Below are positions 9,128 through 64,000 of a stretch of DNA of 64,000 bases, in pieces (position 1 is the stretch's first letter; the number at the start of each line of letters is the position of its first letter). Source of the stretch: Rubrivivax sp. Its GTDB lineage: Bacteria > Pseudomonadota > Gammaproteobacteria > Burkholderiales > Burkholderiaceae_C. Under the pieces are notes generated by a model. That model ran no database searches and had not been told where the DNA came from. It worked only from the letters and a program-made list of their open reading frames with translations. The translations under genes and the position numbers were made by a program. The stretch spans positions 1 through 64,000 of the forward strand of contig JAJTDM010000009.1 of the NCBI GenBank assembly GCA_021300575.1, read 5' to 3'.

Positions 9128-9598
9128 GTGAGCATCAACGCCACCCTGATCGTCCAGATGATCGTGTTTGCGATCCTGGTCTGGTTCACGATGCGATTCA
9201 TCTGGCCGCCGCTCACGGCGGCACTGGACGAGCGCGCCAAGAAGATTGCCGAGGGCCTGTCGGCAGCCGACAAGGCCAAGGCGGACCTGGCCGCGGCCAA
9301 CCAGCGCGTCGAGCAGCAGTTGTCTGCGGCCCGCAACGACGCCGCCAAGCGCCTGGCCGATGCCGAGCGTCTGGCCCAGCAGACGATCGAGGAAGCCAAG
9401 GCGCGCGCTGCCGAGGAAGGTTCCAAGATCGTGGCTGCCGCCCGCGCCGAGGCGGAACAGGAGTCCGTGAAGGCCCGCGAGGCCCTGCGTGAGCAGGTGG
9501 CCGCGCTGGCCGTCAAGGGTGCCGAGGCCATCCTCAAGCGCGAAGTGAACGCCGGCGTCCATGCCGAGCTGCTCACCCGTCTGAAGACCGAGCTCTGA
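9128..9598 (+). CDS. atpF: ATP synthase Fo subunit b
   Basis: A 156-residue peripheral stalk subunit. One N-terminal membrane helix ([16 protein letters not shown]) is followed by a long Ala/Glu/Lys/Arg-rich coiled coil, as expected for the dimeric stalk that reaches the delta subunit. The start codon is GTG at 9128. The length matches the standard b subunit, with no b/b' duplication in the window. Confidence 0.95.
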
Positions 9599-9658
9599 AA
9601 GAGCTGTCCGGCCAGGTCACACGACCCTTCTCCACTCCGACACCCCGAGCCCCACGAC

Positions 9659-10189
9659 ATGGCTGAAATCGCCACCATCGCCCGGCCCTATGCCGAGGCC
9701 CTGTTCAAGGCTGCCGGTGCGCAGGCTGCCGTGCTGTCCGCTGAGGTGGGCGCGCTGGCGGCCGTGGCTGCCGACGAGCAGCTGCGCCAGTTCGCCGACA
9801 ACCCCAAGACCTCGTCCGATCAGGTGCTCGGCGTGGTGCTGGGAGTCGTCAACCAGCCTCTGTCGGCTGCTGCGCAGAATTTCCTGCGTGCGGTGCTGGA
9901 CAACGGCCGACTGGCGGCGCTGCCCGAGATCGCTTCGCAGTTCCATGCCCTGGTGAACGCGCAGAGCGGCGTGTCCGACGCGCTCATCGAAAGCGCTTTC
10001 CCCATCGAGCCGGCGCAACTGCCTGACGTGGTGGCCACGCTGGAGCAGCGCTTCTCGCGCAAGCTCAACGCCCGAGTGGAGCTGTGCCCTGAGCTGATCG
10101 GCGGCATTCGCGTCATCGTGGGTGACGAGGTGCTGGACGCCTCGGTCAAGGCCCGGCTCGATCACATGAAGGTGGCGCTCACGGCCTGA
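9659..10189 (+). CDS. atpH: ATP synthase F1 subunit delta
   Basis: A 176-residue subunit joining the b-dimer to the top of the F1 head. The N-terminal six-helix domain starts [13 protein letters not shown], and the C-terminal signature reads [24 protein letters not shown], both typical. It lies between atpF and atpA with gaps of 60 and 68 bp. Confidence 0.95.
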
Positions 10190-10257
10190 GGCGGTTTGCG
10201 CCCACGCCAGCACCCACAGCCCGAACTCATCCGCCTGCAAGACGTCAGGAGAGACAC

Positions 10258-11808
<1,551 letters not shown>

Positions 11809-11843
11809 ACCTCGCCTGACTTACCTGCTTAGGAGCATCCGTC

Positions 11844-12722
11844 ATGGCGGTCGGTAAAGAGATACGCGGCAAGATCAAGTCGGTGGAAAACACCAAGAAG
11901 ATCACCAAGGCCATGGAGATGGTCGCCGCCTCCAAGATGCGCAAGGCGCAGGAGCGTATGCGCCAGGCGCGGCCCTACAGCGACAAGGTCCGCAACATCG
12001 CGGCCAACCTGTCGCAGGCCAACCCGGAGTACCGTTCGCCGTACATGCGCACGGACGGCACCTCCAAGGTGGATGGTTTCGTGGTGGTCACCACCGACAA
12101 GGGCTTGTGCGGTGGCCTGAACACCAACATCCTGCGTGCGCTGACCAACCGCATGCGCGAGTCCCAGGATGCCGGCCGCTCGGTGCAGACCGTGGCCATC
12201 GGCAACAAGGGCTTCGGCTTCCTCAACCGCATCGGAGCCAAGCTCATCAGCCACGCGGTGCAGTTGGGTGATGCGCCGCAGCTCGAGAAGCTCATCGGCC
12301 CGGTGAAGGTGATGCTGGATGCCTTCGTGGCGGGCAAGGTGGATTCCGTTCACCTGTGCTTCACCAAGTTCATCAACACGATGAAGCAGGAACCGGTGAT
12401 CGTCAAGCTGCTGCCGCTGTCGGCGGAGAGCCTGGCGCAGTCCGAGGCGGAAAAGGCCCAGTACGGCTGGGACTACATCTACGAGCCCGACGCCCCCAGC
12501 GTCATCGACGAGCTGCTCACCCGTTATGTCGAGGCCCTGGTCTACCAGGCGGTGGCGGAGAACATGGCCTCCGAACAGAGCGCCCGCATGGTGGCGATGA
12601 AGGCGGCCACCGACAACGCAGGCAGCCTGATCGGCGAACTCAAGCTCATTTACAACAAGACGCGTCAAGCGGCGATCACCAAGGAATTGAGTGAAATCGT
12701 CAGCGGCGCGGCAGCGGTCTAA
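11844..12722 (+). CDS. atpG: ATP synthase F1 subunit gamma
   Basis: A 292-residue central shaft subunit. The N-terminal helix starts [29 protein letters not shown], and the C-terminal helix contains [26 protein letters not shown], the two regions that form the coiled-coil rotor. Complete, with the usual position between atpA and atpD. Confidence 0.96.
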
Positions 12723-14162
<1,440 letters not shown>

Positions 14163-55989: not shown

Positions 55990-56718
55990 TCAGAACAGCA
56001 CTGTCAGCTTCAGCCAGCTCTCGGGCAGCCAGTTGTTCACGCGCGCTTCCAGCCATTTGTCCGCTCCCGTCAGGATGGCCACGCCCATGGCGCCCAGCAG
56101 CACGGCAAACGCGTTCTTGATCCCAGCGATGCGCGCCATCACCCACCCGCGGGCACGGCTGAAACCGGCGCGTGAGGCGTAGGCCACCGCCACCAGCGGC
56201 ACCGCCGCCCCAAGGCCGAACAGGCCCAGGATGATGCCGCCGCGCACCCCTCCGCCCTCGCTGGCCACCAGCGTGAGCGCCGAAGCCAGAAGGGGACCTG
56301 AGCACGGGCTCCACACCAGGCCCAGCACGCTGCCCAGCATCAGCGCACTGCCCAGAGACCCACCGGAAAACTTCGAGGACGCCGCCTGCGCGCCGCTGGC
56401 CAGCGGCGTCATCAGCTGCGTGAAGCGCTCGTTCCAGGCGGGCACCAGCATCACCAGGGCGAAGGCGATCAGCAGCCAGCCGCCGGCTATCCGCACCACG
56501 TCGGTGTCCAGCCCCACGGCTTGGCCGACGGTGCCCACCAGCACGCCGATACCGGCAAACGACAGGGCCATGCCCAAGCCCAGGGCCACGGGCGCCAAGC
56601 GGTGGTTCTGCAGCGCGCCGCCCAGCACCAGCGGCAGCAGCGGGAAGACGCACGGGCTCAGCGTGGTGAGGCTGCCGGCGGCCAGACTCAGGCCGACTTC
56701 GGGAAGGGTGATGGCCAT
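55990..56718 (-). CDS. ccdA: CcdA-type cytochrome c biogenesis/thiol transporter
   Basis: A 242-residue membrane protein with six helices. The redox Cys pair is in LTTLSPCVFPLLPLVLGG (helix 1) and LVWSPCSGPLLASALTL (helix 4), as in CcdA, the minimal relative of DsbD. It passes reducing power from the cytoplasm to a periplasmic thioredoxin-like partner. The upstream gene, 13 bp away, encodes just such a partner with CGTC. The pair probably reduces a specific periplasmic target, next to the general DsbD of this window. Confidence 0.88.
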   Translation of the reverse strand: MAITLPEVGLSLAAGSLTTLSPCVFPLLPLVLGGALQNHRLAPVALGLGMALSFAGIGVLVGTVGQAVGLDTDVVRIAGGWLLIAFALVMLVPAWNERFTQLMTPLASGAQAASSKFSGGSLGSALMLGSVLGLVWSPCSGPLLASALTLVASEGGGVRGGIILGLFGLGAAVPLVAVAYASRAGFSRARGWVMARIAGIKNAFAVLLGAMGVAILTGADKWLEARVNNWLPESWLKLTVLF

Positions 56719-56731
56719 CGCCTTGCCCGCC

Positions 56732-57127
56732 TTACAGCGCCGCCTTCAGGGCGGCGCGGAACTTCGCCGGTTCGGTGTCACCGCCCAGCCGAGCCTTCTC
56801 CTCCTTGCCGCGGAACACCACCATGGTGGACTGGCTGCGCACCTTCAGGGCCTTGCGCAGCTCCTTTTCCTTGTCGTAATCGGCAATCAGCAGCGTCACG
56901 TCCAGGCCGCTTTCGCCCTTGAGCTGGGCGATGGCCTTTTCCTGCTGCTTGCAGGTGCCGCACCAGTCAGCATGGAAGTGCACGGCCACCGGCTTGCCAG
57001 CGGCCTGCGCTTCGGCCAGCGCCTGCGCGGTGTAGGGCTTGACCTCCAGGGCCTGCGCCAGGGTGGCGGCAACACCGAGCGCCAGGGCCAGTGCGGTGCG
57101 CAGGAAGGGGCGTGTGGTGGTGAACAT
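56732..57127 (-). CDS. Periplasmic thioredoxin-like protein
   Basis: A 131-residue exported thioredoxin-fold protein. A signal peptide (RTALALALGVAATLAQA) is followed by the fold with HFHADWCGTCKQQEKAI, active site CGTC. It is coupled to ccdA (13 bp gap), which would keep it reduced. The ATG at 57127 gives a compact signal peptide. An exact GTAACC-N16-CGAA site about 100 bases upstream suggests control by the neighbouring ECF sigma factor. Confidence 0.88.
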   Translation of the reverse strand: MFTTTRPFLRTALALALGVAATLAQALEVKPYTAQALAEAQAAGKPVAVHFHADWCGTCKQQEKAIAQLKGESGLDVTLLIADYDKEKELRKALKVRSQSTMVVFRGKEEKARLGGDTEPAKFRAALKAAL

Positions 57128-57227
57128 GAGAAAACCTTTCTGGTTTCTGGTGAGGGCGGATTGAACGGACAGTGGCAGGGTACCGGGCTTTGGCTTGACA
57201 AGCCGCAAAAGGGCCACTGGCAGGCCA

Positions 57228-57253
57228 TTCGCTGCAGCTCTCGCCCCGGTTAC
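57228..57253 (-). promoter_or_regulatory. Predicted ECF sigma promoter of the thioredoxin-ccdA operon
   Basis: On the minus strand, GTAACC (57253-57248), 16 bases, CGAA (57231-57228). This is identical in hexamer, spacing and -10 to the site upstream of the ECF gene. The predicted leader to the ATG at 57127 is about 95 bases. The remainder of the 215-bp gap to nrsF shows no gene. Confidence 0.7.
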
Positions 57254-57342
57254 ATCGAAGCGATCCGTTTGATGCAGGTGCCCCGTGTCTTGGCAGCGAA
57301 ACAGCCGCGGCGCAGGCCTGCGGTCTCGGCCTGAGCGGGTGC

Positions 57343-57984
57343 CTACCAGCGCAGCAGCCGGGGGCCGAGCAGGGCACCTGCTGCCGCGCAGGTGGCGATG
57401 CCCGCGGTGTACCAGACGGCAACGTACGCGGCGGAAAACTCCGGGCAGCAGAACGCGTAGGCGAAGGCGCCGCAGGCGCCGGCTGCTCCGCCGGCCAGAG
57501 CGCCTGCGGGGCGCAGCCGGGTGGGTGCCAGCCGGCGCAGGGCCAACATCGCCGCGGCAAACACCGGCAGGGCCAGCAGCATCACCTTCGGCGCGCAGGT
57601 CACCCAGCTGCCGTCACGGCCCAGCACTGTGGCGGCCTGCTGGGCGGCAGGGGCCTGGTTCCAGACCACCAAGCCGAACGTTGCCATCAGCAGGAACACG
57701 ACGCCCGCGGCCCGCAAGGGCCCGCGCCAGGGCTGTGCCGGCAGCCCGGCGTGCAAGGTCGCCAGGCCCAGTGTCCAGGCCAGCAGCCCGGTGTAGGCCA
57801 GCTTCATCCAGGGTGCGGGCGCGGCGAAGTCGCTCGCCGGCACCGCGCCCAGCACGGTCAGCCCACCCCCCAGGGCCAGCGCCGTGGCCCCTGCCAGCGG
57901 CAGGCCCATGGCACGCCAGCCGGAACTGCGTGGTGCCGGCCCGGCGCCGTGCGCCAGGGTGTTGATGAGTTGATCGGTGTGCAT
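57343..57984 (-). CDS. NrsF-type (DUF1109) anti-sigma factor
   Basis: A 213-residue protein with six membrane helices and a short cytoplasmic N-terminus (MHTDQLINTLAHG) that should hold the sigma factor. Cys residues in VTCAPKVMLL and in the pair FCCPEFSAAY face likely periplasmic or membrane-edge positions, as in NrsF of Caulobacter, where such Cys sense heavy metals. It lies 4 bp after the ECF gene in the same operon. This is a sequence-family call; metal sensing here is inferred. Confidence 0.85.
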   Translation of the reverse strand: MHTDQLINTLAHGAGPAPRSSGWRAMGLPLAGATALALGGGLTVLGAVPASDFAAPAPWMKLAYTGLLAWTLGLATLHAGLPAQPWRGPLRAAGVVFLLMATFGLVVWNQAPAAQQAATVLGRDGSWVTCAPKVMLLALPVFAAAMLALRRLAPTRLRPAGALAGGAAGACGAFAYAFCCPEFSAAYVAVWYTAGIATCAAAGALLGPRLLRW

Positions 57985-57988
57985 AGGT

Positions 57989-58576
57989 TCAACCTCCTGC
58001 AGGCGGCTTGGGGGTGCCGGGCTGCACCCACGCCGCCAGGCGCTTGAGCCCCCGGTGGACCTGGACCTTGATCGCCGAGGCGGAGTCACCCGTCTCCAGT
58101 GCGGCCTCGGCCACGGAAAGGCCTTCGAGCTTGGTGAGTTCAATGGCGCGCCGCTGCGCGGGCGGCAGCCGCGCCAGCAGCGTGCTCAGGTCGCGCCGGA
58201 CCGATCCGACTTCCTGGGGTGCGTCCTCGGCCGGCCAGTCGTCGAAGTCGTCCACCGGGTCGTGCAAGGCCTCGCGCCGGCCGAGGCGGCGCCAGTGGTC
58301 CACCAGCTTGTAGCGCGCGATGGCGTGCATCCAGTGGCTGACGGTCAGGGCTGGGTCGTGCGTGCCGCGCTGCACATGCACGGCGATCAGGGTCTCCTGC
58401 ACCAGGTCCTCCACATCGTCGGGTCGGTCGGTCAGCCGGCGCCGCAGGTAGGCCCGCAGCCGTTGCGCCATCTTCTGCAGGGCCAGACGGTAGGCGGCTT
58501 CGTCACCGGCCTGAGCGCGCTGCCACAGCGGGGCCAGACCGGCTTCGAAGGCGTCCGGCGGCTGCTCAAAGTTCAT
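57989..58576 (-). CDS. ECF sigma factor paired with NrsF
   Basis: A 195-residue RNA polymerase sigma factor. Region 2 covers VEDLVQETLIAVH and HWMHAIARYKLVDHWRR; region 4 covers LLARLPPAQRRAIELTKLEGLSVAEAALETGDSASAIKVQVHRG. It lacks region 3, as ECF factors do. The ATG at 58576 shares its A with a predicted autoregulatory -10 (CGAA, 58579-58576), so either the mRNA begins inside this frame and uses a later start, or another promoter is used. Target promoters should match GTAACC-N16-CGAA. Confidence 0.92.
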   Translation of the reverse strand: MNFEQPPDAFEAGLAPLWQRAQAGDEAAYRLALQKMAQRLRAYLRRRLTDRPDDVEDLVQETLIAVHVQRGTHDPALTVSHWMHAIARYKLVDHWRRLGRREALHDPVDDFDDWPAEDAPQEVGSVRRDLSTLLARLPPAQRRAIELTKLEGLSVAEAALETGDSASAIKVQVHRGLKRLAAWVQPGTPKPPAGG

Positions 58577-58641: not shown

Positions 58642-59712
58642 TCAGCCGACCATAAGGCGTGCCTGCGGCGCCGCTACGCAGCGCCCCACCACCGCCGCCG
58701 CCTCGAAGCCATGGCGGGCGAAGGTGGCGCGCACGGCGTCCACGGCTTGCGGTGCACAGGCCACCAGCAGGCCGCCACTGGTCTGCGGGTCGGTCAGCAG
58801 GGCCTGGTCTTCCGAGGCGAAACCGGCGGGCAGCACCACGTCGTGGCCGTAGCCGGCCCAGTTGCGGCCGGAGGCGCCGGTGACGAAGCCCTGCGAGGCG
58901 AGCTGACGCACGCCCGGCAGTTGCGGCACGCTGGCCCACTCCAGCTGCACCTCGCACTTCGCGCCGCGCGCCATCTCCAGCGCGTGGCCGGCCAGGCCGA
59001 AGCCGGTGACGTCGGTCAGCGCGTGCACGCCCGGCAGCGCGGCCAGGTCAGGTCCGGGCGTGTTGAGCTTGGTGGTGGTGGCGATCATCTGCGCGTAGCC
59101 CGCCTCGCCCAGCTCGCCCTTCTTCAGCGCCGCGCTCATCACGCCCACGCCGATGGGCTTGCCCAGCACCAGCACGTCGCCGGGTTGCGCGTCAGCGTTG
59201 CGCTTGACATGGTCCGGGTGCACCAGGCCCAGGGCCACCAGGCCGTAGATGGCTTCCACGGAATCGATGGTGTGACCGCCGGCAATCGGGATGCCCGCGG
59301 CCCGGCACACCGAGGCGCCGCCCTCCAGGATGCGGCCGATGGTGGCCGTGGACAGCACGTTGATGGGCATGCCCACCAGCGCCAGCGCCAGGATGGGCCG
59401 CCCACCCATGGCATAGACATCGCTGATGGCGTTGGTGGCGGCTATACGGCCGAAGTCCAGCGGGTCGTCCACGATGGGCATGAAGAAGTCGGTGGTGGCG
59501 ATCAGCGCCTGCTCGTCGTTGAGCTTGTAGACGGCGGCGTCGTCCGCGGTCTCGATGCCGACCATCAGCTCCTTGGGGATGGGCATGGCCGCCGTGCCCT
59601 TGAGGATCTCGGACAGCACGCCCGGGGCGATCTTGCAGCCGCAGCCGCCGCCGTGGGACAGCGAGGTCAGGCGGGGTTCGGCGGTGGGGGCGAGCTTGTC
59701 GGGGGCGTTCAT
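58642..59712 (-). CDS. selD: Selenophosphate synthase (SelD/SenC)
   Basis: A 356-residue enzyme that makes selenophosphate from selenide and ATP. The N-terminal catalytic motif SHGGGCGCKI has Cys24, Cys26 and Lys27; Cys, not selenocysteine, occupies the key position. GIETADDAAVYKL, GGHTIDS and TDVTGFGLAGH follow as expected. AAGGAAG precedes the ATG at 59712 at normal distance, better than the ATG at 59718. It is the downstream partner of the SenB-type glycosyltransferase (18-bp gap), so it likely supplies selenoneine synthesis (SenC role) and perhaps tRNA selenation too. Confidence 0.93.
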   Translation of the reverse strand: MNAPDKLAPTAEPRLTSLSHGGGCGCKIAPGVLSEILKGTAAMPIPKELMVGIETADDAAVYKLNDEQALIATTDFFMPIVDDPLDFGRIAATNAISDVYAMGGRPILALALVGMPINVLSTATIGRILEGGASVCRAAGIPIAGGHTIDSVEAIYGLVALGLVHPDHVKRNADAQPGDVLVLGKPIGVGVMSAALKKGELGEAGYAQMIATTTKLNTPGPDLAALPGVHALTDVTGFGLAGHALEMARGAKCEVQLEWASVPQLPGVRQLASQGFVTGASGRNWAGYGHDVVLPAGFASEDQALLTDPQTSGGLLVACAPQAVDAVRATFARHGFEAAAVVGRCVAAPQARLMVG

Positions 59713-59730
59713 GGGCATCTTCCTTTCGGT

Positions 59731-60735
59731 TCAGCGGCCCTGCCGCTGGAGCAGTTCGGTGACCAGCCGTAACAAGGTGCTGGCCTCGGTTTCGGGCGCA
59801 AAACATGGAGCGCGCCAGCCGATCTGCTGGCGCAGGGCTCGCAGCATATCGGCATCGTCACGGACGCGCTCGAGCAGGCGCGCCAGGCTTGCATCGTCTC
59901 CGGGCTTGAAGTAGCCCCCGTAGTCAGGCCCCAGCAGGCCGACATTGCCCTCGATACGCGAGGCGATGACGGGCGTGCCGCTGCGCACGGCCTCGATCAC
60001 CACGTGTGCGCCGCCCTCCATGCGGCTGGGGTGCACCAGCACGTGGGCGGCCTGGATGCGCCGTCGCGTCGTCTCGTGCGGCAGGCCGCCCAGCCAGCGG
60101 TACCGAGGGTGTGACGCGGCCAGCGTGGTGGCGCGCCGGGCCCATTCCGGGTCCAGGGCGTTGCCGATATGGTCCAGCAGGATGTCCGGGCGGTGGGTCA
60201 GGCGCCGCGCCGCAGCGAAGTAGGTCTGCGGGTCCTTCTCGGCGCGCAGGTGGCCGACCATGAGCGCACGCAAATGGCGTGACGTGTGCGGCAGCGCCTG
60301 GCGGGCGCTGCAGGACTGCAGCACCACCCGGCACTTCGGGCGCAAGGCCAGCGGCAGGCGTTGCGCGCCCAGTTCGTTCAGCACCACCAGCGCGTCGGCC
60401 AGTTTCAGCGAGCGCTGCGCACTGGCATCGTGCTCGATGTCGCGGTACAGGTCGGTCCCGGTCAGCGCCACGACCAGCGGTGCGTTGGGGTGCTGCTCGC
60501 GCCAGGCGGCGATCGAGGCCGCCGAGCGGCGGGCGTGCAAGGCAATCATCAGGGCCGATGAGTCCGCCTGTTCTTCCCGGCGGGTCGATGCGCTCGCAGC
60601 CTGTGGCCATGCAGCCGCCAGCGTGACGGGATGGTGCGCTGAGAGCATGGCATGCCAGCGCCGCGCCGTCTGCCAGTTGCCGTTGTTCGCATCGGCCAGC
60701 GCGGGCGTGACGATCACAATCGGTGCCGTATGCAT
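59731..60735 (-). CDS. senB: SenB-type selenosugar synthase (TIGR04348 glycosyltransferase family)
   Basis: A 334-residue GT4-like glycosyltransferase with the family start IVIVTPALADANNGNWQTA. The GT-B C-terminal half is seen in RALMVGHLRAEKDP, YRWLGGLPHE, HPSRMEGGAHVVIEAV and SGTPVIAS. In described sen clusters this enzyme uses selenophosphate and UDP-GlcNAc to make a selenosugar. Here it stands with selD behind it and an EgtB-like gene in front, the expected context. Its start codon overlaps that of the divergent senA-like gene. Function assigned by family and context. Confidence 0.85.
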   Translation of the reverse strand: MHTAPIVIVTPALADANNGNWQTARRWHAMLSAHHPVTLAAAWPQAASASTRREEQADSSALMIALHARRSAASIAAWREQHPNAPLVVALTGTDLYRDIEHDASAQRSLKLADALVVLNELGAQRLPLALRPKCRVVLQSCSARQALPHTSRHLRALMVGHLRAEKDPQTYFAAARRLTHRPDILLDHIGNALDPEWARRATTLAASHPRYRWLGGLPHETTRRRIQAAHVLVHPSRMEGGAHVVIEAVRSGTPVIASRIEGNVGLLGPDYGGYFKPGDDASLARLLERVRDDADMLRALRQQIGWRAPCFAPETEASTLLRLVTELLQRQGR

Positions 60736-62121
60736 GGGACAAGCGTAACCGGACTGACATCTGCGGGCGGCGTGGGGGTATCTCCGGCACCTGGCGTGCA
60801 GGAGACGGCTGCTCAGCCGGACCCCGTGGAAGGCAGCGAGGCCACGCTCGCCCGCAGCGGCGGCCCCGACGTGCTGGCCCAGGCGCTGCAGGACAGCCGG
60901 CGCGACACCCTGGCCACCTTCGCCGCCTATGAACGCGCCTTGCCGGGCTTGCAGGTGCCGCGCACACCGGAGTTGAACCCGCCGCTGTGGGAGTTGGGCC
61001 ACATCGGCTGGTTCCAGAACTTCTGGATCGCGCGCAACCCGGTGCCCGAACGCACGTGCGGCCGCCGTGCGGACCCGCTGGCGCCGCGGCTGGCGCAGGC
61101 CCCCGGCCACCGCCCCGAGGCCGATACCCTGTACGACTCCACCCGCGTGGCGCATGCCACTCGCTGGCAGTTGCCCTTGCCTGATGCGCCCTGCACGCGC
61201 CACGACCTGGCGCAGGGCCTGGCCTGGACGCTGGACTTGCTGCAGGGCCTGGCCCGCGCTGCCCCGCAAGGCCCGCCCGACGACGACGCGCTGTACTTCT
61301 TCCGCCTGGCCTTGATGCACGAGGACATGCACCATGAAGCGGCCTTGTACATGGCGCAGGTCCTGGGCGTGCCCGTGGACGATGGCCGTTGGCAGCCCCG
61401 CCCGCTGCCCGAACTCCCAGCGGCGCTGGCAGTGCCGGCCGGGCTGTGGAGCGGCAAGCTGCCCGGGACCACGGGATTTTGCTTCGACAACGAGTTCGGT
61501 GCGCTGCAGCGGGAGGTCCCGGCCTTCGAGATCGACGCCCAGGTCGTTCGCTGGGCCGAATTCCTGCCCTTCGTGGAGGCAGGGGGCTACGAGAAAGCAC
61601 GCTGGTGGACACCTGCCGGCTGGGCCTGGCGCGGGGCTGCCAGGTCTGGCCGGGCGGGCCAGCTTGGCACGATGGCCGCGATGGGTGCGAAGGGCGCAGC
61701 AGCCCCGCGCTATCTGCGCCAGGCGGGCCGACATTGGCAGGTCTGGCGGCAAGGCCGGTGGACACTGCTGGACCTGACCGAACCGGCCTGCCACCTCACC
61801 TGGCATGAAGCCCAGGCCTGGTGCGCCTGGGCGGGCCGGCGACTGCCCAGCGAGTTCGAGTGGGAGCGCGCGGTGCTCACGCACCCCGCGGCCTTCGCCT
61901 GGGGCGATGTGTGGGAGTGGACGGCCAGCCCTTTCGCCCCCTTCCCCGGTTTCGAGCCCCACCCGTACCGTGAGTACTCCGCCCCCTGGTTCGATGGCCG
62001 GCCGGTGTTGAAGGGCGCGTCCTTCATGACCCAGCCGCGCATGCGCCACCCGCGCTACCGCAACTTCTTCGAGGCCCACCGCAACGACGTGCCGGCGGGG
62101 TTTCGCACCTGCACGGCGTGA
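60730..62121 (+). CDS. senA: SenA-type selenoneine synthase (EgtB-like iron enzyme)
   Basis: A 463-residue non-heme iron enzyme. The N-terminal DinB-like domain has three His ligands, His91 in ELGHIGWF and His197/His201 in HEDMHHE, as in EgtB. The C-terminal FGE-sulfatase-like domain has RLPSEFEWERAV, WGDVWEWTASPF and the ending GFRTCTA. EgtB joins gamma-glutamylcysteine or cysteine to hercynine; next to SelD and SenB the likely reaction is selenosugar with hercynine to form the C-Se bond of selenoneine. The ATG at 60730 overlaps the senB start; GTG at 60772, 60796 or 60826 are alternatives, none with a good ribosome site. Confidence 0.83.
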   Translation: MHGTSVTGLTSAGGVGVSPAPGVQETAAQPDPVEGSEATLARSGGPDVLAQALQDSRRDTLATFAAYERALPGLQVPRTPELNPPLWELGHIGWFQNFWIARNPVPERTCGRRADPLAPRLAQAPGHRPEADTLYDSTRVAHATRWQLPLPDAPCTRHDLAQGLAWTLDLLQGLARAAPQGPPDDDALYFFRLALMHEDMHHEAALYMAQVLGVPVDDGRWQPRPLPELPAALAVPAGLWSGKLPGTTGFCFDNEFGALQREVPAFEIDAQVVRWAEFLPFVEAGGYEKARWWTPAGWAWRGAARSGRAGQLGTMAAMGAKGAAAPRYLRQAGRHWQVWRQGRWTLLDLTEPACHLTWHEAQAWCAWAGRRLPSEFEWERAVLTHPAAFAWGDVWEWTASPFAPFPGFEPHPYREYSAPWFDGRPVLKGASFMTQPRMRHPRYRNFFEAHRNDVPAGFRTCTA

Positions 62122-62143
62122 AGCACGGCGTGAAGCGCATCCC

Positions 62144-63103
62144 TCAACCCCAGGCCAGCCACACCCCGAACCAGCCCTGCGCGTCAGTCCAAGCTTCGGT
62201 CTGCGTGAACCCGGCCCCGCGCAGCAGCGCCTCGAAAGCCTGGGGGTTCCATTTGTACGAGTTCTCGGTGTGGATGCGCTCGCCTGCGGCGAAGCGGCGC
62301 TCGGCGCCGGGCCAGCGCACCGTCAGGCTGCGCCGCGCTTCCAGATGCATCTCGATGCGGGACTCGGCCGCGTTGAACACCGCCAGGTGCCGCCATTCGC
62401 GCAACTGGAAGTCTGCGCCCAGCAGGCGGTTGAGGTGGTTCAGCAGGTTCAGGTTGAAGGCGGCGGTGATGCCCAGGGCGTCGTCGTAGGCGGCCTCCAG
62501 CACGTCCACGGGCTTGACCAGGTCCGCGCCGATCAGCAAGGCGCCACCAGCGGCCACGCTGCGGGCCTGGCTCAGCAGGTGCAGGGCTTCAGCGGGGGTG
62601 AAGTTGCCGATGCTGGAGCCCGGATAGAACACCACCGCCGGCCCCGACACCAGGCCCGGGGGCAGGGCGAGTTCGGCCGAGAAGTCCAGGCCCACGCCGA
62701 CCATGGGCATCTGCGGATGTTCTCGCTGCAGGCATTGCAGCGACTGGCGCAGGAACTCCACCGAGATGTCCACCGCCACGTAGCGCCCGGGCTGCAGCAG
62801 CGGGAACAAACGCGAGGCCTTGGCGCAGTTGCCCGCGCCCAGGTCCACCAGCGCGGGCCCGGGCCCGGTGACGCGCCGGGCCGCCTCGCCGATCGCCAAG
62901 CCGTGCGTGGCCATGAGGGCCGCCTCGGTGCGGGTGGGGTAGTACTCTGCGGTCTCGGTGATGGCGTCGAACAGCCTCGAGCCCAGCGAGTCGTAGAAGA
63001 ACTTGGGTGACACGTGGGCCGCTGGCGCCCGCAGGCCGGCGGCGGCTTCAGCGGCCAGGGCCCGGTCGTCGCCGTGGTGCAGCTGGATGAAGTCAGGCGT
63101 CAT
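62144..63103 (-). CDS. egtD: L-histidine N-alpha-methyltransferase (EgtD)
   Basis: A 319-residue SAM-dependent enzyme that trimethylates histidine to hercynine, precursor of ergothioneine and selenoneine. Seen: KFFYDSLGSRLFDAITETAEYYPTRTE for histidine binding, the SAM motif LVDLGAGNCAKA, VFYPGSSIGNF, and RIHTENSYKW near the end. The ATG at 63103 is used; the frame has a TTG two codons earlier. It converges on senA (22-bp gap) and diverges from the binding-protein gene. No egtA or egtC is nearby, which suits the selenium route. Confidence 0.92.
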   Translation of the reverse strand: MTPDFIQLHHGDDRALAAEAAAGLRAPAAHVSPKFFYDSLGSRLFDAITETAEYYPTRTEAALMATHGLAIGEAARRVTGPGPALVDLGAGNCAKASRLFPLLQPGRYVAVDISVEFLRQSLQCLQREHPQMPMVGVGLDFSAELALPPGLVSGPAVVFYPGSSIGNFTPAEALHLLSQARSVAAGGALLIGADLVKPVDVLEAAYDDALGITAAFNLNLLNHLNRLLGADFQLREWRHLAVFNAAESRIEMHLEARRSLTVRWPGAERRFAAGERIHTENSYKWNPQAFEALLRGAGFTQTEAWTDAQGWFGVWLAWG

Positions 63104-63146
63104 CGTCAAGAATTCCGCGGGCCCAGTGGCGGGCCTTGTCCTTTCA

Positions 63147-63181
63147 GGTCACTCTAGCAGCCGCCCCGGGATAGAGTGACC
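63147..63181. promoter_or_regulatory. Perfect 10-bp inverted repeat in the egtD/binding-protein divergent gap
   Basis: GGTCACTCTA (63147-63156) and TAGAGTGACC (63172-63181) are separated by 15 GC-rich bases. Placed midway between two divergent genes (starts 63103 and 63220), it fits the binding site of a regulator controlling both. Each half also contains TAGAGT reading outward, which could serve as a -10. Confidence 0.5.
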
Positions 63182-63219
63182 GATCGCTTTGTCTTTACCC
63201 ACTTCGCTTGGAGCCTTCG

Positions 63220-64000
63220 ATGATCAGCCTGTCTCCCTCCCGCACCCTCAAGGCCCTCATGACCTGCGCCCTGATGGTGTTTGGATCTTTATCTCACGCT
63301 CAGCAGGTGTTTCGCGTCACCACCATCCCGGAGGAGGCGGCCACGGAGCAGGTGCGCAAGTTCACCCCGCTGGCCAGCTACCTGGAGAAGCGGCTGGGCA
63401 TGAAGGTGGAATTCACCCCTGTGAGCGACTACCCCGCGGCGGTGGAGGCCCTGGTCAACAAGAAGGTGGACCTGGTCTGGTTCGGCGGCTTCACGCATGT
63501 GCAGGCGCAACTGCGCTCGGGTGGCAAGATCGTGCCCATCGCCCAGCGCGAGGAGGACACCAAGTTCCAATCGGTCTTCATCGCCAAGACCGATTCGGGC
63601 ATCAAGGCGCTGGCCGATCTCAAGGGTAAGCAGATCAGCTTCGGTTCGCAGAGCAGCACCTCCGGCCACCTGATGCCGCGGCACTTCCTGCTGCAGGCGC
63701 AGATCAACCCGGAGAAGGATTTCAGACGCATCGCCTACAGCGGCGCGCATGACGCCACCATCGCCTCGGTGGTCAGCGGCAAGGTGGACGCCGCCGCGCT
63801 GGACATCACCGTGTGGCGCAAGTTCGTGGGTGAGAACAAGGTCGACACCAAGGCCGTCAATGTGTTCTACACCACGCCCACCTTCTTCAACTACAACTGG
63901 TCCATGCACGTGGACACCGCGGCCGAACTGCGCGAGCGGGTGAAGAAGGCCCTGCTGGACCTGGACCCGGCCATGCCCGAGGGCAAGGAGATCCTGCAAC
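63220..64000 (+). CDS. PhnD-like ABC transporter substrate-binding protein, possibly for selenium oxyanion (partial)
   Basis: The 3' end is cut; 260 codons are visible. A signal peptide ends SLSHA (residue 27), then comes a periplasmic binding domain of the phosphonate/phosphite type: IPEEAATEQVRKFTPLASYLEKRLG, DLVWFGGFTHVQAQL, FGSQSSTSGHLMPRHFL and AALDITVWRKF. The family named putative selenate ABC binding protein (TIGR04553) is of this kind and often stands by selD and TIGR04348 genes. The neighbours make that the best guess over phosphonate or phosphite. GGAG lies 8 bp before the ATG. Confidence 0.78.
   Translation, partial: MISLSPSRTLKALMTCALMVFGSLSHAQQVFRVTTIPEEAATEQVRKFTPLASYLEKRLGMKVEFTPVSDYPAAVEALVNKKVDLVWFGGFTHVQAQLRSGGKIVPIAQREEDTKFQSVFIAKTDSGIKALADLKGKQISFGSQSSTSGHLMPRHFLLQAQINPEKDFRRIAYSGAHDATIASVVSGKVDAAALDITVWRKFVGENKVDTKAVNVFYTTPTFFNYNWSMHVDTAAELRERVKKALLDLDPAMPEGKEILQ

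Follow-up and report, generated by a model that had tools for sequence, protein, structure and literature searches.

Selenoneine biosynthesis is a known pathway (PMC9814287, PMC10702425, and PMC10891094). Its chemistry has been established in Variovorax paradoxus, whose sen cluster is described, in the part of the literature at hand, as three genes with the products SenA, SenB, and SenC. A related system is the ergothioneine pathway with EgtB and EgtD, from which SenA is familiar as a relative of EgtB. An ATP-binding cassette (ABC) importer tied to the same compound class, the ergothioneine importer EgtU, is also described (PMC9732360). Here, we focus on the right end of a stretch of 64,000 nucleotides from Rubrivivax sp. 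(the window; positions 1–64,000 of contig JAJTDM010000009.1), where the segment 58642–64000 carries the three sen enzymes of V. paradoxus, each above its curated cut-off. Unlike the three-gene cluster, the locus adds egtD, a whole ABC importer operon, an ATP-grasp gene, and a YHS gene, the last ones lying beyond the window edge. It is predicted to encode a complete selenoneine pathway, a reading to which we give a probability of about 0.87. The cargo of the importer and the step proposed for the ATP-grasp protein are each far less sure than the pathway.

A predicted selenoneine pathway in Rubrivivax

Five genes are open in the studied segment, four of them complete and the binding-protein gene cut by the window edge. 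SelD/SenC, SenB, SenA, EgtD, and the binding protein each score above their own NCBIfam curated cut-off (Table 1). Among solved chains, SenA matches 8k5i best (367 bits) and SenB matches 8jjn and 8fbx best (331 bits). Chance is excluded as the source of these profile and solved-chain scores. A sequence-only reading of the window had placed a selenoneine gene set with these four enzymes in the segment; the searches with the SenA, SenB, and TIGR04553 models all passed, and the models, the tree described below, and the absence of any EgtB over cut-off from the genome support it.

By orthology with V. paradoxus, EgtD would trimethylate histidine to hercynine and SelD/SenC would produce selenophosphate. 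SenB would then move selenium onto a nucleotide sugar, and SenA would couple the selenosugar with hercynine, after which selenoneine would be released.

As SenA is related to EgtB, it could be argued that the EgtB-like enzyme of the locus makes ergothioneine and that its neighbours are coincidental or serve selenouridine only. The window protein does match the EgtB model TIGR03440, at 197 bits (cut-off 360), but it reaches 477 bits on the SenA model NF041186 (cut-off 420). It retains the upstream His and the HxxxH motif, which we take to be iron ligands. The fetched loci yielded 83 EgtB-like frames with 300 or more residues, 78 of them distinct; with the solved V. paradoxus SenA these gave a tree of 79 rows, the midpoint root of which is for drawing only. 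A branch supported at 100/100 separates the 19 rows with HEQQHQE from the other 60, which include both the window SenA and that of V. paradoxus. Two HEQQHQE rows from relatives score 531 and 523 bits on the EgtB model, and one of these two matches a solved ergothioneine EgtB at 438 bits. The SenA-type assignment survives this comparison, in that the tree of 79 rows does not place the window protein among the ergothioneine EgtBs.

The rest of the genome (4.72 Mb, 97.7% complete) bears on the same alternative. It holds a single egtD match and, at that completeness, no EgtB over the TIGR03440 cut-off, the best match being SenA itself at 184–197 bits. This sets it apart from the ergothioneine pathway, with which it shares EgtD. 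One SelD is over cut-off in this genome, no SelA is, and a SelU (360 bits) is present; hence selenophosphate appears to serve both selenoneine and selenouridine. SelU thus gives SelD another use, as the ergothioneine alternative would have it, but the locus also contains a dedicated SenB. Taken with the model scores and the tree, this makes ergothioneine synthesis by the window enzyme very improbable, and we retain the selenoneine pathway.

It does not hold that every EgtB-like gene of these clusters is a SenA. In five related loci (L131, L132, L137, L154, and L167) a gene of the EgtB group lies between a permease gene and the ATP-grasp gene; the one scored, that of L131, has 523 bits on the EgtB model. 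Because of this placement, the ergothioneine and selenoneine routes may share a single egtD there. As a separate observation, a second SenA-like protein of 413 residues occurs in genome G000 (contig C91:51410-52582; stretches L009 and L085) and scores 305 bits on the SenA model. The second His of HxxxH is missing from this type, which reads HEDRL in G000, G020, and G011 and HEDRS in G004. These four proteins form a clade with 100/100 support and a long stem inside the SenA side of the tree.

Gene order and neighbouring genes

The coordinates of the genes are collected in Table 1. The spacing between selD and senB is 18 bases. If the ATGs at 60730 and 60735 are used, senA and senB begin inside a shared palindrome, ATGCAT, one on each strand. 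The contig continues to 69968, that is, 5,968 bases beyond the window. In it the ATP-grasp gene starts 9 bases beyond the second permease gene, and the likely ATG of the YHS gene overlaps the ATP-grasp stop. The genes of the binding protein, the ATPase, the two permeases, the ATP-grasp protein, and the YHS protein look like one predicted six-gene operon, divergent from egtD. On the other side, the region adjoining selD (55990–58576) holds frames that, judged by eye, resemble a membrane protein of the CcdA type, a protein similar to thioredoxin, and an extracytoplasmic function (ECF) sigma factor paired with an NrsF-like protein.

Table 1. Genes of the selenoneine locus and of the adjoining operon. 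Scores are in bits, with the NCBIfam curated cut-off in brackets where there is one; positions above 64,000 are contig positions downstream of the window.
Gene	Position	Strand	Product	Model score	Remarks
selD/senC	58642..59712	-	Selenophosphate synthase, 356 residues	TIGR00476 425 (125); PRK00943 533	Alternative ATG possible 6 bases upstream
senB	59731..60735	-	Selenosugar synthase, 334 residues	TIGR04348 441 (300)	ATG at 60735
senA	60730..62121	+	Selenoneine synthase, EgtB-like iron enzyme	NF041186 477 (420)	Start at ATG 60730 or at one of several in-frame GTGs downstream
egtD	62144..63103	-	Histidine N-alpha-methyltransferase (to hercynine), 319 residues	TIGR03438 353 (291)	ATG at 63103
Binding-protein gene	63220..64000 in window	+	PhnD-like ABC importer binding protein	TIGR04553 316 as cut, 353 complete (250)	Ends at contig 64086
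ATPase gene	64127-64972		ATPase of the importer operon		
Permease gene 1	64969-65805		Permease of the importer operon		
Permease gene 2	65812-66639		Permease of the importer operon		
ATP-grasp gene	66649-67992		ATP-grasp protein		Downstream of second permease
YHS gene	about 67989-68693		YHS protein		After ATP-grasp gene

Distribution of the cluster in Burkholderiales

Among 61 related genomes, 27 have a SenA above cut-off. Around matches to the SenA model, 40 stretches, none longer than 20 kb, were fetched, and 27 of them hold SenB; contig ends cut several of these 27, so that the gene counts are lower bounds. SenA is present at 26 of the SenB loci, SelD at 20, the binding protein at 16, and EgtD at 13; EgtD and the binding protein occur together at nine, and the ATP-grasp gene at eight. 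The cluster is therefore a regular form in a group of Burkholderiales and not a single oddity. By the same counts, the linkage of egtD and of an importer, which in the sequence-only reading made this locus nearly self-contained, is not unusual. The whole set is also present in Rubrivivax pictus strain W35 (L154), the record of which is not marked as a metagenome assembly, its selD being truncated where the stretch ends.

Several related loci depart from this form. Three Limnobacter stretches (L181, L184, and L186) contain the ATP-grasp, YHS, and importer genes, egtD, senB, and a SelD-like match, but no SenA match. In L184, egtD and senB are separated by a frame that looks by eye like a methyltransferase. 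In L108 (genome G013) the ATP-grasp gene, egtD, and selD adjoin at 9431–13019, and the 20 kb stretch has no senA or senB match; this is possibly a cluster in decay or the effect of an incomplete genome (80%). In genome G039 (L069, 11433–13940) the SelD match shares a frame of 835 residues with a start that resembles, by eye, a NADH dehydrogenase-type oxidoreductase, and for this reason it is probably a fusion.

Among the titles and abstract openings searched, none names an ATP-grasp enzyme or a TIGR04553 importer in work on selenoneine, although such neighbours may be mentioned in the papers that founded the field (Nature 2022, Nature Chemistry 2024); the available part of PMC10702425 has no mention of a transporter, and that of PMC13188914 none of ATP-grasp. 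Within that scope, neither the ATP-grasp partner nor a tested importer was found in print; the pathway is known, and egtD and the importer are commonly linked.

The importer and its cargo

The sequence-only reading had recognized a PhnD-like binding protein at the right edge of the window. The score of the complete protein bears this out (Table 1), and the sequence past 64 kb shows an ATPase gene and two permease genes directly downstream. The ATPase is PhnC-like (181 bits, cut-off 266), and the two permeases are PhnE-like (198 and 264 bits, cut-off 217). The binding protein matches the Pfam family Phosphonate-bd (PF12974); in this it differs from EgtU, which is of another type, betaine.

Of the 250 genomes of the order, 54 have a match above cut-off to TIGR04553, the model of a putative selenate importer. 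SenB is found in 30 of these 54 and in 43 of the 196 TIGR04553-negative genomes (Fisher 4e-6, the genomes being related), and at 16 of the 27 SenB loci described above the binding protein shares the stretch with sen genes. From the 24 TIGR04553-positive genomes without SenB over cut-off, 20 importer loci were fetched. In three of them selD adjoins the binding-protein gene, and in two of these three (L215 and L218) selU does too.

The closest solved relatives of the binding protein, 7s6g and 5lq5, bind phosphite or phosphonate. The ligand contacts of PtxB and PhnD (5jvb, 5lq5, and 7s6g), taken from PMC5700983, were mapped onto an alignment of 62 distinct TIGR04553 rows with four reference chains. 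The contact Tyr, the cap Tyr, the first Ser of the S-T-S motif, and the His are kept in all 62 rows; the Thr and the second Ser are each kept in 61, both being lost in one SenB-negative row (L219). Two things distinguish the family from PtxB and PhnD: its linkage to sen genes, or else to selD and selU, and the residue that follows the cap Tyr, which is Asn in 62 of 62 rows but either His or Pro in each of the four reference chains. In addition, positions 38, 195, and 224 covary, as D-N-D in 34 of the 62 rows and E-D-N in 26, with two other triplets once each. The window protein has E-D-N, which occurs in one of the 20 SenB-negative rows (L216). D-N-D is also found in the two PhnD-type reference chains, and thus part of the TIGR04553 family is not different from a phosphite binder at these positions.

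These observations suggest, though far less surely than for the pathway, that the importer may supply selenium to selenoneine synthesis. Selenite would be a more likely cargo than selenate, because the phosphite cage is kept, and both phosphite and selenite are pyramidal anions with three oxygens. The competing view is that the importer carries phosphite or phosphonate and that its linkage to sen genes is historical. The preserved cage and the ligands of the nearest solved proteins speak for it, as does the share of TIGR04553-positive genomes that lack SenB over cut-off (24 of 54). Furthermore, 17 of the 20 SenB-negative importer loci have no selD or selU match in the stretch (two of the stretches measure less than 13 kb, and the rest of these genomes was not searched for SelD), and this counts against a selenium cargo. 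An NCBIfam scan of ten genes from five such loci gave no common selenium partner; two genes found no match, and another hit a selenoprotein-type sulfide quinone reductase far below threshold, at 93 bits (cut-off 525). The sharing of stretches with sen genes, the three SenB-negative loci with selD beside the importer, and the invariant Asn are less readily reconciled with a phosphite or phosphonate carrier, which we regard as unlikely.

The ATP-grasp protein

A profile of the ATP-grasp protein, built from 17 relatives, was searched in the 250 genomes of the order. The gene is present in 29 of them, from 11 families, with a wide step in score between the lowest carrier (260 bits) and the next genome (49 bits); in two carriers it is split in two pieces. 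EgtD is over cut-off in all 29 carriers and SenB in 27. By genome class, carriers make up 27 of the 58 genomes that have both SenB and EgtD, 2 of 50 with EgtD only, none of 15 with SenB only, and none of 127 with neither. The Fisher values are 2e-7 within EgtD-positive and 4e-4 within SenB-positive genomes, and they overstate independence as the genomes are related. Since the gene accompanies the enzyme for hercynine as well as that for the selenosugar, its substrate would most simply be the joint product of the two routes, selenoneine.

A separate scan of named genomes kept 80 of 274 loci, selected by the ATP-grasp gene alone. In these stretches sen genes occur at 36 loci, egtD at 39, importer genes at 34, and any of these at 49. 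Flanks of 9 kb or more on either side are available for 43 loci, and 31 of these have a sen, egtD, or importer gene no farther than 10 kb away. In loci of Methyloversatilis, Rhodocyclaceae, and Thiobacillus the ATP-grasp gene is within about 110 bases of egtD.

The window genome's ATP-grasp protein reaches the cut-off of no NCBIfam or Pfam model, and all three distant members tested pass Pfam ATP-grasp_4. Its structure is predicted with a mean confidence (predicted local distance difference test, pLDDT) of 88.5. The best fold matches are L-amino acid ligases, namely 3vot (presumably BL00235) and BacD/YwfE (3vmm), with E values of 6e-20 to 8e-19 and template modelling (TM) scores of 0.59–0.66 in the top five, although they share only 13–15% identity with the protein. 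The motif E-x-N-P-R (E296, N298, P299, and R300), which presumably binds metal and ATP, is invariant in the 17 rows. A ligase of this kind would probably activate the carboxylate of selenoneine or hercynine with ATP and then couple it to an amine. In selenoneine only the carboxylate could be activated, because the amine is trimethylated and cannot be acylated.

Several points weigh against a role tied to selenoneine. The gene is absent from 46 of 73 SenB-positive genomes and is therefore optional. Genes of the sen set, egtD, and the importer are all missing from 12 of the 43 well-flanked loci, and the stretch of L149 pairs the ATP-grasp gene with a true EgtB and EgtD and contains no sen gene. 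Of the two carriers classed as EgtD-only, G175 has a SenB-like protein of 201 bits, and in G095 nothing comes near the SenB cut-off (best E 4e-10). Among the 15 SenB-only genomes, G066 has a piece of EgtD cut by a contig end (257 bits). The TM scores are moderate, and the next fold matches are the generic enzymes PurK, PurT, and biotin carboxylase.

It is thus quite possible, if somewhat short of an even chance, that the protein has a different task in selenium or redox metabolism, such as that of a peptide or cofactor ligase, and leaves selenoneine untouched. Such a role would accord with its presence in only 27 of the 58 genomes with both SenB and EgtD and with its commonest single neighbour among the queried genes being YHS (49 of 80 loci), with or without sen genes. 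Against it stand the scarcity of the gene in EgtD-only genomes, its absence from SenB-only ones, and its closeness to egtD in the three groups named above.

Other proposals were rejected. A tie to selenium alone is too narrow, given EgtD in all 29 carriers and the pairing with EgtB and EgtD in L149. A defence role found no PADLOC match. An in-frame TGA in the homologue of L103 does not encode selenocysteine; it is the terminal stop.

Implications

In lineages that carry the ATP-grasp ligase, selenoneine may not be the end product. Put together, the proposals for the importer and the ligase suggest that in a large group of Betaproteobacteria selenoneine might be an intermediate, ligated through its carboxylate to an amine by the ATP-grasp enzyme at the end of the operon to give an undescribed selenium metabolite, while the importer might be the missing specific selenium transporter of prokaryotes, built on a phosphite cage. 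We offer this combination tentatively and hold it to be the less probable outcome. According to a 2026 review, prokaryotes have no known selenium transporter that is both specific and of high affinity. The locus provides a testable candidate for such a transporter, and likewise a testable candidate for an enzyme that possibly makes a further selenium metabolite.

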